A stretch of DNA of 36,942 nt from Nanobdellota archaeon. Lineage in GTDB: Archaea; Nanobdellota; Nanobdellia; Pacearchaeales; GW2011-AR1. Below the pieces are notes generated by a model. It was not told where the DNA came from and ran no database searches. It was given only the letters and a program-made list of their open reading frames with translations. The stretch lies in the NCBI GenBank assembly GCA_027334715.1, contig DAHWUG010000001.1, positions 171,158-208,099 on the forward strand, in the 5' to 3' direction. A program made the position numbers and the translations under genes. Shown in pieces: positions 18,083-33,839 of the stretch. Each line of letters opens with the position of its first letter. The first letter of the stretch is position 1.

Positions 18083-20113
18083 TTAATCTTTTTCCATCCT
18101 TTTCATGAATCCATTAAGGAATCTTTCATGCTGGGAATGATCCTTCATTTCAGTTAATGCATAAACATCCATGTCCTCTATCTTAATTTTCTCAACCCTT
18201 ACAGAAGTTCTTACCCTGTCTGTCATTTTTTCAGAAAGAAGGATATTATTCTGCGCAATGGATGCTATTTTCTTTGATCTCATCATAATGTTTCCCATTC
18301 CCATGAACCTGAAAACATCTGGTTCCTGCTTTGCAATTATTTCGCCGTAGTTAAGGGAAATTCCAAATTCAATCTTCTGCCTTGCAGTCCTGTTGTGGCT
18401 GTCAAGAATTTCCTTTATTTTCTGCGCAGATTTTATTGCAGTCTGTTCATTGGCAAATGTCTTTGTTCTTGCAGGGGCGAAAATAAAGTAAAGATAATCC
18501 TGATTGTCATATGTTGCAGCTTTCATATCTTCTGCAGATGAAATTATTTTCTTCAGAACTTCTTCTCCGCCGCTTTCTTTTGTATGCCTGATTGAAATCA
18601 TGTTCTTAATATTCACTGCTACAATGCTGACTTCCTGCTTGTCGCCCTTTATTGAAAGAGTTAGTTCTGCCCTGCTGCTTTTTGGGTTGTAAATAGTCAA
18701 GTCCATGCTTTTATTTTTTTCTATTATTCCTAATGCAGTTCCCCCCTTTACAGAGCTAGGCGCGTAGCCTATAAAATTTTTTTGGTAGTTTTTCCTGAAG
18801 AGAATGAATGCAACCGCGCCCAAAATAAAGATGACAAATATCCAAACAGCTGGAAGCTTTGCAATGCTTAGGAAATCGCTTCCCGCTTTTTTAATATCTA
18901 TTGCGCTTCCTGTCAGGCCAACAACTGCTCCTGTTATCATTCCATCATTGATTACCTGAACATTATACTGCCCATCAGGTGCTGTTAAAACCCATTTCTT
19001 GCTTTGGTCAACAGGAATATACACATCAAGATTAAGGCTTTGGTTCCCGACTTTGACAAGAATTGTTCTGTTGAATGGAACATTTCCATTGTTTGTTATT
19101 ATGACAGTATTATTTATTATGCTTGTGCTTATGTTTTCATTTTCCAGAATTGTGAATGTTGAATAGGAATTAATCCTGTTCGAGACAGCTACAACACTCC
19201 AGTTTGCAGGAGCCTGGTCAGATGCTATGGAAAAGTTTGTGAAATTGTCTGTTGAAACCTGCACCTGACTGATTATTTTATTATTATTGTCTTTTACTGT
19301 CAAGAATCCTGTTGAGTTTATTTTTATTCCTGTCTGGTCATAAAGAACTTCCTTGACACTCATGTCTGTTCCCGGCATTACCCTGCTGTTATCGAAAATG
19401 ATTTCAAGGCTTGTCGGAACCTGATTGACATAAATATTGTCATCACTTGAACCATGGTTTGTTATTGTACCTAAAAAGTCTTTCTCATAGATTTTTAGAT
19501 TTACAAGGTAACTCCCTGATGCAGTGTCATTAGGGATGCTTAGATTCATTGAAAAATAGCCATTGTTCACTGTTCCGTTCTGCGAGAGAATTGTTGAATT
19601 TCCGTCAAGAAGACTTATTTCTGCATAGCCGTTTGCAGGATTTTGGTCAGCCCTTGTTGCAACACCCTTTAAAAAAACAGTATCCCCTGGATTGAAACTG
19701 GTTTGGGAAATGTTTGTGCTTACTGTTATTGAATCAGAAATCTGGAAGCTGTTTGTCAATGCATAATCATTTCCAAGATATGCTTTTATCTTGCAGTCTC
19801 CAATGCTGTTTCCTGTAATGCTTCTTGAAAGCACAAGGCTTTCATCCCTATTCCATTGCCCCCCTGACGGGATGCTTATTGTATTTTTGTAAAAATTTAT
19901 TTCATTTCCATTGCAAATTAAGTCCATGTAAAGAGTTCCTATAGTATCTGCTGACTCTTTTACTGTTAAAGAAACAGGTATAATATTTCCTAAATTATAG
20001 ATACTTCCCGGCTGCTGGTTGAAAATTATGTCTGCAGAAGTTAGTGGAACAATCAGCAATATAAACAGGACAGAAAGAATAAGAATTACATTAACTCCTC
20101 TTTTTGATGCCAT
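18083..20113 (-). CDS. Membrane receptor-like protein: Ig-like ectodomain, one TM, cytoplasmic degenerate class III adenylate/guanylate cyclase-like domain
   Basis: Signal peptide; repeated Ig/macroglobulin-like segments; TM FLSIAKLPAVWIFVIFILGAVAFILF; C-terminal VSIVAVNIKNMISI...QDYLYFIFAP...TAIKSAQKIKEILDSHN...KIEFGISLNYGEIIAKQEPDVFRFMGMGNIMMRSKKIASIAQNNILLSEKMTDRVR. Confidence 0.78.
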   Translation of the reverse strand: MASKRGVNVILILSVLFILLIVPLTSADIIFNQQPGSIYNLGNIIPVSLTVKESADTIGTLYMDLICNGNEINFYKNTISIPSGGQWNRDESLVLSRSITGNSIGDCKIKAYLGNDYALTNSFQISDSITVSTNISQTSFNPGDTVFLKGVATRADQNPANGYAEISLLDGNSTILSQNGTVNNGYFSMNLSIPNDTASGSYLVNLKIYEKDFLGTITNHGSSDDNIYVNQVPTSLEIIFDNSRVMPGTDMSVKEVLYDQTGIKINSTGFLTVKDNNNKIISQVQVSTDNFTNFSIASDQAPANWSVVAVSNRINSYSTFTILENENISTSIINNTVIITNNGNVPFNRTILVKVGNQSLNLDVYIPVDQSKKWVLTAPDGQYNVQVINDGMITGAVVGLTGSAIDIKKAGSDFLSIAKLPAVWIFVIFILGAVAFILFRKNYQKNFIGYAPSSVKGGTALGIIEKNKSMDLTIYNPKSSRAELTLSIKGDKQEVSIVAVNIKNMISIRHTKESGGEEVLKKIISSAEDMKAATYDNQDYLYFIFAPARTKTFANEQTAIKSAQKIKEILDSHNRTARQKIEFGISLNYGEIIAKQEPDVFRFMGMGNIMMRSKKIASIAQNNILLSEKMTDRVRTSVRVEKIKIEDMDVYALTEMKDHSQHERFLNGFMKRMEKD

Positions 20114-20256: not shown

Positions 20257-21378
20257 ATGGACAAAAAAATGAATGTGACTCCCTGGGAAGTTTCTGGAAA
20301 AATTGATTATGACAAATTGATAAGGGAATTTGGGATTAAACCAATAACAAATTTGCCTCAAGCTTTTATGGGCAACATATTATTCAGAAGAAAAATTGTT
20401 TTTGCACATAGGGATTTTGAAAAGATAATTGACTCAATAAAAAACAAGAAGCCCTTTGTCATGATGACTGGATTGATGCCTACAGGAAAGTTCCATTTAG
20501 GCCATATGATACTTGCTCTCCAGATGGCATTTTACCAAAAGCTTGGCGCAAAGATTTACATAGCTGTTGCAGATTTGGAGGCATACAATGCAAGGCAAAA
20601 GAGTCTTGAAGAGCTCAGAAAAAATGCAGTTGACCAGTATCTTCTTAATTATGCTGCCCTTGGACTTGACTTAAGCAAATGCGACATTTACTTTCAGAGC
20701 GATAGGAGCAGCAATGCAAAAAAATCCAGCGCTTATTACAGGCTTGCTTCAAATTTCTCAAGATATGCAACATTTAATGAATTTAAGGCTATTTACGGAG
20801 AAATTACACCAGGGAAAATGAATGCTTCACTTTTGCAAGCTGCAGATATGTACCATCCCCAGCTTCCGGAGTTTGAAGATTCAATACCAACCTTCATTCC
20901 TGTCGGAATAGACCAGGATCCCCACATAAGAATTGCAAGGGATATGGCCAACAGGGACAAAGACTACAAATTCATTCCAATTGCATCAACTTATCACATA
21001 TTCCTTCCTGGATTGAAAGGCGGGGGAAAAATGTCTTCAAGCGATGAGAATTCTTTTATTGCTATGACAGACTCCCAAAAAGAAGTCGAGCAGAAAATCA
21101 GGAAATATGCATTTTCAGGGGGAAAAGACACTATTGAAGAGCACAGAAAGAAAGGCGGGAATCCTGATGTCGACGTTTCTTTCCAATATCTTAAGATGTT
21201 CTTTGAACCTGACGATGAAAAATTGAGAAAAATTGAGAATGATTACAGAAGCGGAAAGCTTCTGACATCTGAACTTAAAGAGTATCTGATAAAAAAGATA
21301 AATTCATTCCTTTCTGAACACCAGAAAAAAAGGGATCTTGCGAAAAAACAGATTGAAAAATTTGTTTTTAAGGCTTAA
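20257..21378 (+). CDS. trpS: Tryptophanyl-tRNA synthetase
   Basis: NVTPWEVSGKIDYDKLIREFG, GLMPTGKFHLGHM (HIGH), VGIDQDPHIRIARDMA, GGKMSSS (KMSKS). ATG at 20257; TATA-like atatatttaaa upstream. Confidence 0.95.
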   Translation: MDKKMNVTPWEVSGKIDYDKLIREFGIKPITNLPQAFMGNILFRRKIVFAHRDFEKIIDSIKNKKPFVMMTGLMPTGKFHLGHMILALQMAFYQKLGAKIYIAVADLEAYNARQKSLEELRKNAVDQYLLNYAALGLDLSKCDIYFQSDRSSNAKKSSAYYRLASNFSRYATFNEFKAIYGEITPGKMNASLLQAADMYHPQLPEFEDSIPTFIPVGIDQDPHIRIARDMANRDKDYKFIPIASTYHIFLPGLKGGGKMSSSDENSFIAMTDSQKEVEQKIRKYAFSGGKDTIEEHRKKGGNPDVDVSFQYLKMFFEPDDEKLRKIENDYRSGKLLTSELKEYLIKKINSFLSEHQKKRDLAKKQIEKFVFKA

Positions 21379-22040
21379 TCACCGTTTCTTGTAATGTCCC
21401 TTATGTATTTTTGAGTTATTTTAGGGAGCCTGTCAAAATTTTTTATTGCATCTCCATAGCTCATTCTCCTGAGATTTCCTATTCCTGTATTGTAGCTTGC
21501 AAGGACATTCGCAACTGTTTTTTCAAGCCCGCGCTGTTCGAGCATTTTAGGAATTCTCTCAAACAAATACCATCTGCTGACAATTCCATTTTTCCTTGGA
21601 TTAAACATGTCTTCTTCGCTGAATTGCCTTGCATGATTTTGATTATAATCCTCCAAAGCCCCTGATTCGCTTGTATTAATCTGGTTCTCGCCCTTGGAGT
21701 ATATTGTATCTGGAACTACCATACCATCAACCACACTTTTTCTTATTACAAAACTAACTGCATTAGGATTATTGTTTGATTCAGTCTTTTTTAGCCTTTG
21801 AACCAGGTGACTTTTTTCTTCACTTGTCAAATCACCAATATTTTTTCCAGCAATATAATCCAAAGAGAAAGGCAAAGGGTCTGCTTTTACATTAATTTCA
21901 GGCATATCGTAGGAGTATGCCACAGGTTCAGGCAATTCAGCATTGTCTGTTTTGCCAAGCTGCGGCGGGAACATTGTAGTTACTATACTTGCCAGTCCGA
22001 TAATTCCCTGCCTGATTACTCTTTCTGTTCTGTTTTTCAT
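21375..22040 (-). CDS. Lytic transglycosylase/lysozyme-like (SLT-fold) exported protein
   Basis: N-terminal hydrophobic segment; LKKTESNNNPNAVS (catalytic-Glu motif), YSKGENQINTSESGALEDY, DMFNPRKNGIVSRWYLFERIPKML, VANVLASYNTGIGNLRR. Confidence 0.75.
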   Translation of the reverse strand: MKNRTERVIRQGIIGLASIVTTMFPPQLGKTDNAELPEPVAYSYDMPEINVKADPLPFSLDYIAGKNIGDLTSEEKSHLVQRLKKTESNNNPNAVSFVIRKSVVDGMVVPDTIYSKGENQINTSESGALEDYNQNHARQFSEEDMFNPRKNGIVSRWYLFERIPKMLEQRGLEKTVANVLASYNTGIGNLRRMSYGDAIKNFDRLPKITQKYIRDITRNGD

Positions 22041-30386: not shown

Positions 30387-30764
30387 ATGGATGATAAAAA
30401 AAATCATGGATATCTTCCCATTATGGAAATTCTCAGCGCTGCTGCAGTAACTCCATCTGGCTTTTTTATTTTTTCAGACCACTTATTTCATAATCAAAAC
30501 TCCATGATAAGAAGCCAGTTCATAATACAGGGAAACTTCACAATCAACCAAACAAAGGTTGACGAAACCACCTCTTTTTTTCAGGACTCTTCCAGCGCAG
30601 ATCAGGTAAGCACATACTGCAGCCAGAACAGAATTCACTGCTTCAAATGCTGCAGGATAAATCCAACCGATAAGAGCTGCGCTGGGCTTTTCAATCATGC
30701 AGGAAATTACGGAATTTACCCACTTATGAATTATGCAGGGCAGGAGGCACGCAGTAATCAATGA
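30387..30764 (+). CDS. Small Cys-containing protein, first gene of ABC operon (tentative)
   Basis: ATG at 30387 with TATA-like tttataaac at 30357-30365; ends ATGA-overlapping the ABC ATPase start. Contains YCSQNRIHCFKCCRINPTDKSC. Confidence 0.45.
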   Translation: MDDKKNHGYLPIMEILSAAAVTPSGFFIFSDHLFHNQNSMIRSQFIIQGNFTINQTKVDETTSFFQDSSSADQVSTYCSQNRIHCFKCCRINPTDKSCAGLFNHAGNYGIYPLMNYAGQEARSNQ

Positions 30765-31492
30765 AATCGATTGTTAAGATGAATGATGTATGGAAAAGAT
30801 ACCCGATGGGGAAGACAGAAGGGCTAAGTGTCCTTAAGGAAGTTTATTTAGACATAAAGCAAGGAGAATTCGTCGCAATAACAGGGCCAAGCGGAAGCGG
30901 AAAAAGCACAATGATGCATCTTGTCGGCGCTCTTGATGTGCCTTCATACGGAAATGTCTATCTTGATGAGAAAAACATAAGCAGCGTTGGTGAATCTTCG
31001 CTTTCTCTGCTGAGAAGCAAGAAAATTGGATTTATTTTCCAGCAGTTTAACCTAATACCGACGCTGAACGCACTGCAAAATGTGATGCTTCCCATGGAGC
31101 TTATTGATGTTTCCGAGGAATCTGCAAGAAAAAGGGCTGAAAATCTTCTCAAAATGCTTGGACTTGGAGAAAGAATGCATCACAAGCCATCTGAACTTTC
31201 AGGAGGACAGCAGCAAAGGGTTGCAATCGCAAGGTCGCTTGCAAACAATCCAGAGATAATCCTTGCCGACGAGCCAACAGGAAATCTTGACAGCAAAACA
31301 GGGACATTTGTCATGGACTTTCTTGGAGAAATGCATGAAAAATACGGAAAAACAATAATTCTCGTTACGCATGACCTGAACCTTGTTCACTATGCAAAAA
31401 GAGTCATTCACATCAAGGATGGGAGAATTGAAAAAGAAGTTGAGAACAAGAGGCCCGGAAGAAAAAGAAACGGGAGGAAAAATGGAAAATAA
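30761..31492 (+). CDS. ABC transporter ATP-binding protein (MacB/LolD-like)
   Basis: ITGPSGSGKSTMMHLVGALD, FIFQQFNLIPTLNALQNVMLP, LSGGQQQRVAIARSLANNPEIILADEPTGNLD, VTHD. Confidence 0.96.
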   Translation: MKSIVKMNDVWKRYPMGKTEGLSVLKEVYLDIKQGEFVAITGPSGSGKSTMMHLVGALDVPSYGNVYLDEKNISSVGESSLSLLRSKKIGFIFQQFNLIPTLNALQNVMLPMELIDVSEESARKRAENLLKMLGLGERMHHKPSELSGGQQQRVAIARSLANNPEIILADEPTGNLDSKTGTFVMDFLGEMHEKYGKTIILVTHDLNLVHYAKRVIHIKDGRIEKEVENKRPGRKRNGRKNGK

Positions 31493-32573
31493 AGCAAACA
31501 AAAAAGAAAAGCCAAATTTTAATGTGCTGAAAAATCTTGCATTGTCAATAATAATTGGAATTCTGATATTATTCCTAATATCATTCTTTTCCATAAAAAA
31601 CATTTCTGCACAGCCAATACAGCAGGTTAATTATACAACATCCTCAAGCGACCAGGGGCTAATTGTTACTCAGCTTGACTACTCCCCATTTCCAGCAAAT
31701 CCTGGAGGATATTTTGATTTATGGCTGAGCGGACAATATATTGGAAGCAATAATGCGCAGACAGTTACTTTTCAATTGCAGCCAAATTTTCCCTTTTCAC
31801 TTGATTCAAATCAAAGCACAAACAAAACTATTGTGCTGGTAGGAGGCCAGAATTTTCTTGTTCATTACAAAATAAAAGTTGACCAAAATGCCGTCACCGG
31901 AGACAATGAGCTTGATGTTCTTTATACTACCGATCCAACAAGCAATGTCTGGATATTGAAGAAGATAGATATTTCTGTCTCAAATGCCCAGACAACATTT
32001 TCATCTGTTATACAGCAGCCAACAAGCAGCTCAGGTTATTCTTTTTCAATCGTAAATACAGGAGAAAACACTGCAAATTCAGTAATAGTTCAGATACCTA
32101 ACCAGCCTGATTTCAGAGTTTCCGGCACAAACGGGCAGGTTGTCGGAAACCTTGCAGCAGGAGATTATACTGTTGTAAATTTTGATCTTGTTCCTACATT
32201 TTCCAGAACAGGAAATATTCCCGGAAGCAGAAACCTCACCGTTGAAATAGATTATACGGACAATATAGGGGTCAGAAGAACTGTTTTTGATACAGTTGAT
32301 TTCACCCCTTCTTTTGCAGGAAACGCTAACATAACAGGACTGACAACTGCAGGCGGGGCTTATTTCACAAGGAACAGGACAGGAACAAGCACATTCAGCA
32401 ATTTCTGGTTCTGGCTTTTTGCTCTTGCTGTTGCAGGCGGGCTTATCCTTTACTATAAAAAACATCCTGAAGATGTAAAAGGATTTTTTGGAAAATCACG
32501 CAAAGACAGAAACAGCAAGCAAAGAGATTCAGGAGAACCAAATTGGGTTTCGGCAGAAAGAAAGAAAAAATAA
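31482..32573 (+). CDS. Exported CARDB/COG1361-like protein with C-terminal TM, ABC operon partner
   Basis: N-terminal signal/TM, repeated Ig-like segments (e.g. YSFSIVNTGENTANSVIVQIP), TM FWFWLFALAVAGGLILYY and basic tail; start overlaps the ATPase ORF. Confidence 0.8.
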   Translation: MENKANKKEKPNFNVLKNLALSIIIGILILFLISFFSIKNISAQPIQQVNYTTSSSDQGLIVTQLDYSPFPANPGGYFDLWLSGQYIGSNNAQTVTFQLQPNFPFSLDSNQSTNKTIVLVGGQNFLVHYKIKVDQNAVTGDNELDVLYTTDPTSNVWILKKIDISVSNAQTTFSSVIQQPTSSSGYSFSIVNTGENTANSVIVQIPNQPDFRVSGTNGQVVGNLAAGDYTVVNFDLVPTFSRTGNIPGSRNLTVEIDYTDNIGVRRTVFDTVDFTPSFAGNANITGLTTAGGAYFTRNRTGTSTFSNFWFWLFALAVAGGLILYYKKHPEDVKGFFGKSRKDRNSKQRDSGEPNWVSAERKKK

Positions 32574-32582
32574 GAGGCTGAA

Positions 32583-33839
32583 ATGAGAATAAAAAAAGCA
32601 TTTCATCTCGCCTTCAACATACTTCTTCACAGCAAGCTTAGAATCTGGCTTACAATAATAGGTATTGTCATAGGAATTGCAGCGATTGTTTCGATAATTT
32701 CTGTCACAGAAGGCGCGCAAATGAATCTGCAGAGCCAGCTTAACTCTTTTGGGGCAAATATCCTGACTGTAACACCTGGATTTTCAAGGGCAAGCAGCAC
32801 GGCAGGCGGATTCAGAACATTTTTTGAAAATGGGCAATCTTTATCTGTAAACCAGAAAAATCTTACAACAACAGATGTGAATGTCATAAAAAATATCCAG
32901 AATGTTGATTATGCAATGGGAACTATAAGCTTAAGGCAAAGTGCAACATATCTTGGCAATAATGCAAGTGTCAGCATTGAAGGAGTTGATCCATTGATAT
33001 GGAAATATTTTGTTTCTTCACAGCTTGAAGATGGAAGATATCTTTCTGCAGGCGATGTAAACAGCGTTGTTGTTGGAGGCAATATTGCAAACTCTGTTTT
33101 TTCAAGCATGACTGCCAACAGCCAGATAGACCTTGGGGGTCAGCTTTTCAGAATTGTCGGGATACTTAAGCAAAGCGGAAACCAGGAAGACAATCAGATT
33201 TTCATGCCAATACAGGCTTTGAGAAATATTGAAGGCGATCCATCTGGAAACTATTTTAATTCAATATCTGTTGAAATAAAAGACACAAGCCTCTCAAACC
33301 AGACAGTGAATGACATAACCCAAAGCCTTATGGTTTCAAGGGGAATTTTCCAGGCGAAAAACCAGGATTTCACAGTGACTTCTCCACAGGCTTTTCAGGC
33401 AAGGATTTCATCTGCTTTGGGATCAACATCCATTTTCCTTGCAGCAATTGCAGCTATTTCGCTTATTGTTGGAGCTGTTGGAATCTCCAATACAATGTTC
33501 ACTTCTGTCATGGAAAAAACAAGGGAAATAGGAATAATGAAAGCAATCGGTGCTAAGAACAAGGATATTTTGCTGATATTCCTGATTAACTCAGGGCTTA
33601 TAGGGCTTGTTGGGGGAATAGGGGGAGTTGTTCTTGGACTTATAGGGGCAGGATTTATAGGAAACCTGACAAGCGGGAGCAGGATAGGAGGAAGGCTGAC
33701 TCTTGGTTCTGTTTATATTAATCCTGTACTTATAATCGGAGCTTTTTTAATTTCAATTATTGTTGGAATGATTGCAGGCGTGATTCCAGCATACAGGGCG
33801 TCAAAGCTAAAGCCGATTGAAGCATTAAGATATGAATAA
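32583..33839 (+). CDS. ABC transporter permease (MacB/FtsX family)
   Basis: Four-TM MacB layout; SKLRIWLTIIGIVIGIAAIVSIISVTEGAQ, GISNTMFTSVMEKTREIGIMKAIGAKNKDI, PAYRASKLKPIEALRYE. Confidence 0.95.
   Translation: MRIKKAFHLAFNILLHSKLRIWLTIIGIVIGIAAIVSIISVTEGAQMNLQSQLNSFGANILTVTPGFSRASSTAGGFRTFFENGQSLSVNQKNLTTTDVNVIKNIQNVDYAMGTISLRQSATYLGNNASVSIEGVDPLIWKYFVSSQLEDGRYLSAGDVNSVVVGGNIANSVFSSMTANSQIDLGGQLFRIVGILKQSGNQEDNQIFMPIQALRNIEGDPSGNYFNSISVEIKDTSLSNQTVNDITQSLMVSRGIFQAKNQDFTVTSPQAFQARISSALGSTSIFLAAIAAISLIVGAVGISNTMFTSVMEKTREIGIMKAIGAKNKDILLIFLINSGLIGLVGGIGGVVLGLIGAGFIGNLTSGSRIGGRLTLGSVYINPVLIIGAFLISIIVGMIAGVIPAYRASKLKPIEALRYE

Follow-up and report, generated by a model that had tools for sequence, protein, structure and literature searches.

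The receptor gene and its architecture

The window, by which we mean the whole 36,942-nucleotide stretch of archaeal DNA analyzed here, carries on its minus strand an open reading frame (18083..20113) that encodes a receptor-like protein of 676 residues with a class III pseudo-cyclase domain. The protein has a type I single-pass architecture. Its hydrophobic N terminus, read from the translation, forms a signal peptide (residues 1-27; 20033..20113, minus strand), which is followed by an extracellular region (residues 28-420; 18854..20032, minus), a single transmembrane helix supported by helix 395-418 of the structural model and by the hydrophobic sequence (residues ~421-444; 18782..18853, minus), a variable cytoplasmic linker (residues 445-480; 18674..18781, minus), a domain with the class III nucleotidyl-cyclase fold (residues 481-664; 18122..18673, minus), and a short C-terminal helix with a basic tail, a segment conserved after the domain in relatives (residues 665-676; 18086..18121, minus). 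The linker is the least conserved part of the protein, with a mean pairwise identity of 0.20 across residues 444-477.

The extracellular region is built of four macroglobulin/Ig-like beta-sandwich domains, with limits at about residues 28-126, 127-231, 232-327, and 328-402. An AlphaFold model made with 32 homologues (residues 27-446, pLDDT of 90.7) shows four consecutive beta-sandwiches and then one long hydrophobic helix; an earlier note on this DNA had proposed a signal peptide, several Ig-like beta segments, and one transmembrane helix by inspection, and the model agrees on the sandwiches and the helix, while the signal peptide stands on our own reading of the sequence. Foldseek places the macroglobulin-domain chains of complement C3, C4, and C5 and of alpha-2-macroglobulin as the best PDB matches to the ectodomain, and the Pfam MG2 model matches the protein with an E value of 5e-7, slightly below its cut-off. 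Because the domains are arranged differently, global TM-scores against the PDB macroglobulin chains reach only 0.2-0.3, and thus the likeness of the ectodomain is to be read at the level of the repeated domain.

The window belongs to a genome of 588 kb that is 90% complete. Orthologues are spread across the Pacearchaeota: the gene is present in 45 of 57 relatives, and open frames of similar length are found in most of the 57. Relatives matched in a genus-level alignment search are named Candidatus Pacearchaeota or Nanoarchaeota, and the closest named one is LacPavin_0920_SED2_MAG_35_12, with 61% identity in the cyclase-like domain; the single window protein used as a query against named genomes found no homologue. 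The genes that flank the receptor keep part of their order among relatives, and they mostly encode tRNA synthetases and other housekeeping functions. Elsewhere in the window lie a protein with an SLT lytic-transglycosylase domain and an N-terminal hydrophobic segment, here in an archaeon (21375-22040, minus; Pfam E value of 4.5e-7), and, as read from translations, a row of genes for an ABC transporter ATPase, a surface-like protein whose ends are hydrophobic, and a MacB/FtsX-like permease (30761-33839).

The cytoplasmic domain has a class III cyclase fold

The earlier note had aligned the C-terminal region by eye with class III cyclases along its length. Could such a likeness be chance, the region being unrelated to cyclases? 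There are grounds for asking: a Pfam scan of the window protein alone returns no cyclase domain match, and a profile built only from 15 close relatives gives a weak result, its best PDB match being a uridylate cyclase at an E value of 0.57. However, intermediate profiles say otherwise. A profile of seven order-level relatives matches CyaB at 5e-19, and the 40-member profile (A1) finds Cya2 (2w01) at 3e-10 and CyaB (3r5g) at 2e-9 in the PDB. The Pfam family PF00211 (Guanylate_cyc) is matched by 16 of the 40 profile members (best E value of 1e-10, at 41.8 bits where the cut-off is 21.9), and this curated cut-off is also exceeded by two members of the family to which the window belongs. The AlphaFold model of the domain is confident (pLDDT of 94.4, pTM of 0.89), and in the Foldseek search that the note had suggested, the top PDB matches to this model are all class III cyclase domains (E value of 4e-11, TM-score of about 0.73). 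Profiles, the above-cut-off Pfam matches of relatives, and predicted fold agree that the resemblance is real and not chance. The chance explanation, to which we give almost no credence, is refuted at the level of these tests, and the alignment by eye has held up along the whole domain.

The active site is incomplete throughout the family

We assigned residues by aligning the window domain to CyaB and Cya2. A functional class III cyclase needs two metal-binding Asp residues, a transition-state Asn and Arg, and a purine-specifying Lys with an Asp/Thr partner, and the window protein has none of these sets complete. The first metal position holds Asn501 (18611..18613, minus), and the Asp is lost there in 50 of 51 close relatives; the second holds Asp539 (18497..18499, minus). 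At the transition-state positions, the Asn is replaced by Met611 (18281..18283, minus) and the Arg by Lys615 (18269..18271, minus), the latter position being Lys or Arg in 49 of 51 close relatives (K in 35, R in 14). The adenine-binding Lys aligns to a gap in the window protein and in all 51 close relatives, and the second adenine-specifying position holds Arg602 (18308..18310, minus), where 41 of the 51 have Lys or Arg. These are the substitutions that had been proposed by eye for the first Asp and for the transition-state pair.

The note had also stated that the second Asp is kept. It is, in the window protein, but it is not a feature of the family: 22 of the 51 close relatives have Asp at this position, and the others have Asn, Glu, Ser, or Gly. 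The retention of Asp539 therefore carries no weight, and we dropped the idea that it marks binding of a single metal ion. The note had called for a survey of homologues. No pseudo-domain among 62 distinct ones has all four core residues, and 31 of the 62 have none, while each of the 19 intact domains used for comparison (CyaB, Cya2, and 17 domains from genomes of the same class) has four of four. A few relatives retain two or three of the four, so the loss may have been stepwise; very low activity in some family members is possible on these residues. As for the basic residues at the old Arg and second adenine positions, their side chains would allow the binding of an anion, which is not to say that they demonstrate it.

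A degenerate domain that is maintained

Is this domain, without its catalytic set, decaying? It is not. A profile with low sensitivity for the window's family detects the cyclase-like domain in 100 of 136 genomes of the order, and a better profile detects it in 22 of 22 sampled genomes of that family. Among relatives, the domain is no less conserved than the ectodomain (mean identities of 0.40 and 0.36, respectively). For two pairs of close relatives, the dN/dS values are 0.111 and 0.055 in the cyclase-like domain, against 0.129 and 0.103 in the ectodomain. Purifying selection on the coding sequence is strong, and the domain is a maintained pseudo-cyclase. The residues that are invariant in close relatives (TKTFxNE, HNKxFKQK, a KK pair, and GDKQ) fall mostly at noncatalytic positions. 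Lineage-wide conservation and dN/dS of 0.06-0.11 support the proposal of the note that the pseudo-cyclase serves as a signaling module.

Related receptors with other cytoplasmic parts

Ectodomains of this family are present in 135 of the 285 genomes of the class, and they are not always joined to a pseudo-cyclase. In three receptors whose ectodomain belongs to the family of the pseudo-receptors, the class III domain is intact: L080/L117 in the window's family, and L240/L242 and L224/L241 in other families (Pfam cyclase E values of 3e-19, 5e-26, and 2e-23). Profiles of the intact receptors and of the pseudo-cyclases match each other at an E value of 1e-19. Many more receptors have only a short tail; of 23 of these read outside the order, 17 carry a terminal motif like SMFD, NIFD, GMFN, or DVFK, and this common ending suggests a common cytoplasmic binding partner. 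In L209-L232, tail-only receptors of other families, most C termini read GLFSMFD, NPFNIFD, GMFNMFD, or similar.

How did the pseudo-receptors arise? In a tree of cyclase domains, the pseudo-domains form one clade (100/99), and a branch uniting pseudo- and intact receptors against all other cyclases has weak support (74/69). A tree of the ectodomains places the intact receptors among tail-only receptors from other families (99/98), apart from the pseudo-receptors. We had considered whether the pseudo-receptors descend directly from these intact receptors, and rejected this on the weak cyclase branch and the separation in the ectodomain tree. A single fusion followed by losses and two independent fusions are both possible.

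Two further kinds of cyclase-related protein were seen in the class. A second receptor paralogue, with a shorter and more degenerate cyclase-like tail, occurs in five genomes (L051, L052, L053, L235, and L236); its profile matches the pseudo-cyclase profile at an E value of 2.5e-4 and a probability of 43%, which is no more than suggestive, and the window genome yielded no copy. Scattered genomes encode intact class III cyclases whose sensor part by eye resembles CHASE2 (L078, L079, L082, L083, and L098); these were possibly acquired from bacteria.

In total, we think it probable that these proteins represent an undescribed DPANN receptor family, in which a macroglobulin-like ectodomain is coupled to an intact cyclase (once beside a Hanks-type kinase), to an F-x-[MI]-F-[DN] tail, or to a repurposed pseudo-cyclase found across the Pacearchaeota.

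Candidate partners in the genome

We searched the gene neighborhoods of relatives for a conserved functional partner and found none, only housekeeping order. Within the window genome, PF00211 detects no other class III cyclase, the A2 profile matches the receptor gene alone, and no domain that binds cyclic nucleotides (cNMP) was detected; since the genome is 90% complete, a cyclase may have been missed. In these searches, then, no second class III domain was found that would supply the missing half of a heterodimer. The second receptor paralogue was also considered as such a partner and set aside, given that its profile link is no more than suggestive (2.5e-4) and that it was not detected in the window genome.

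Two neighboring genes in relatives deserve mention. In seven deeper-branching relatives (L031-L034, L044, L045, and L066), the next gene, in the same direction, encodes a HAD-superfamily hydrolase; none lies directly downstream of the window receptor. In G142, a genome of the window's family, a Hanks-type Ser/Thr kinase is encoded 39 bases downstream of an intact receptor cyclase (L117:7262-8455; PF00069, E value of 1e-29).

A proposed mechanism and its alternatives

The architecture, the fold, the loss of the catalytic set, the wide conservation, and the purifying selection all come directly from computation, and they leave the dimer, the ligand, the output, and the direction of signaling to be inferred. 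We lean toward a model in which the protein is a dimeric receptor whose dead cyclase domain passes a signal by protein contact or by ligand-driven allostery. In this model, the four extracellular macroglobulin-like domains of a type I single-pass Pacearchaeota receptor would bind a ligand, a surface polymer, or a partner cell. The cytoplasmic cyclase-fold domain, which has lost its metal-binding and transition-state residues, would produce no cyclic nucleotide, and it would most likely homodimerize, as true class III cyclases do. We posit that ligand binding alters the geometry of the receptor dimer, and that the output is delivered through protein-protein contact, perhaps modulated by a small anionic ligand that binds the basic residues retained at the old adenine and Arg positions.

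Could the signal instead travel from the inside out? The dead domain might bind a nucleotide, cyclic or not, leave it unconverted, and thereby alter the ectodomain outside the cell, much as LapD does with c-di-GMP. The class III fold is a nucleotide-binding fold, the Lys or Arg that 49 of 51 close relatives keep in place of the transition-state Arg, and 41 of 51 at the second adenine position, would fit an anionic ligand, and the degenerate GGDEF-EAL receptor LapD offers a precedent (PMC3032553, PMC5231407). However, neither the first metal Asp nor the adenine Lys is present, the basic residues may be mere surface charge, and neither synthesis nor reception of cNMP was detected in the window genome; we regard this possibility as unlikely, if worth keeping in mind. 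It is also conceivable that the protein is mainly an adhesin or a surface-layer anchor and that the cyclase fold is only a dimerizing or anchoring plug. Such a role would suit a macroglobulin-like ectodomain, the short cytoplasmic tail that is all that most relatives elsewhere in the class carry, and the attachment of DPANN archaea to hosts (PMC11329633). Against it stand a conservation of the domain equal to that of the ectodomain, equal or stronger purifying selection, and specific conserved polar motifs, and we judge the idea improbable.

Catalysis in some form is the remaining alternative, either by an active cyclase with unusual residues or by a heterodimer with another cyclase-fold protein that restores activity. 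Asp2 is present in the window protein, split-site heterodimers are known among class III cyclases (PMC8815786, PMC9552081), and some relatives have the second receptor paralogue with its cyclase-like tail. But in one and the same chain, damage affects Asp1 of the metal half as well as Asn and Arg of the transition-state half, no other class III domain was found in the genome, and the paralogue, itself degenerate, was not found there either. We hold catalysis to be very improbable, and we return to a noncatalytic dimeric receptor as our working model.

Significance and comparison with known systems

The receptor points to an undescribed signaling protein in the Pacearchaeota, a group whose signaling is almost unknown. 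It is close to a core gene of a large archaeal lineage that is uncultivated and whose genomes, at about 0.6 Mb, are so small that every retained gene counts, and it is a concrete candidate for environmental sensing by host-dependent archaea. Moreover, intact, dead, and absent cyclases on related ectodomains make a natural series in which to study how an enzyme becomes a nonenzymatic part of a signaling system. Very few of the predicted archaeal adenylate cyclases are class III, and the source of cAMP in most archaea is unknown (PMC8646023). We found no earlier description of a pseudo-cyclase receptor family in the literature searched, a body that most subscription journals lie outside.

Several known systems bear comparison. 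The alpha-2-macroglobulin family has MG-type beta-sandwich repeats like those of the window receptor at the domain level, but its members have a complete body with a bait region and a thioester domain, whereas the receptor has only four MG-like domains before its transmembrane helix. The class III catalytic domain (PF00211; Cya2 and CyaB) and the window domain have in common the fold, the order of strands and helices, a GxxKQ start, an NxG motif, and an alignment over the whole domain. They differ in that the window domain has incomplete metal and transition-state sets and no adenine Lys, is shortened after strand 1, and has conserved motifs of its own. Archaeal counterparts are the intact receptor cyclases (L080/L117, L224/L241, and L240/L242), which likewise have a homologous ectodomain, one transmembrane helix, and a class III domain, but which have all four core residues, as the window receptor does not. 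Outside the archaea, single-pass receptor cyclases, namely, the natriuretic-peptide receptor guanylyl cyclases and the trypanosome receptor adenylate cyclases (PMC3955944, PMC6027212), also combine an extracellular sensor, one transmembrane helix, and a cytoplasmic class III domain. Unlike these, the window receptor is archaeal, is dead as judged from its residues, has an unrelated macroglobulin-like ectodomain, and lacks a kinase-homology domain.

That a pseudo-enzyme can be part of a receptor is established in principle by LapD (PMC3032553) and by the degenerate (forskolin) site of mammalian transmembrane adenylyl cyclases (PMC8815786). In the mammalian enzyme, a class III site without catalysis serves regulation, but one of the two dimer sites stays active, whereas in the window receptor neither would be. 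LapD and other degenerate GGDEF/EAL receptors (PMC3032553, PMC5231407) are another parallel, in that there too the fold of a signaling enzyme has become a noncatalytic transmembrane receptor; LapD belongs to a different enzyme family and has a known ligand and partner, whereas the archaeal receptor is known from sequence and models.
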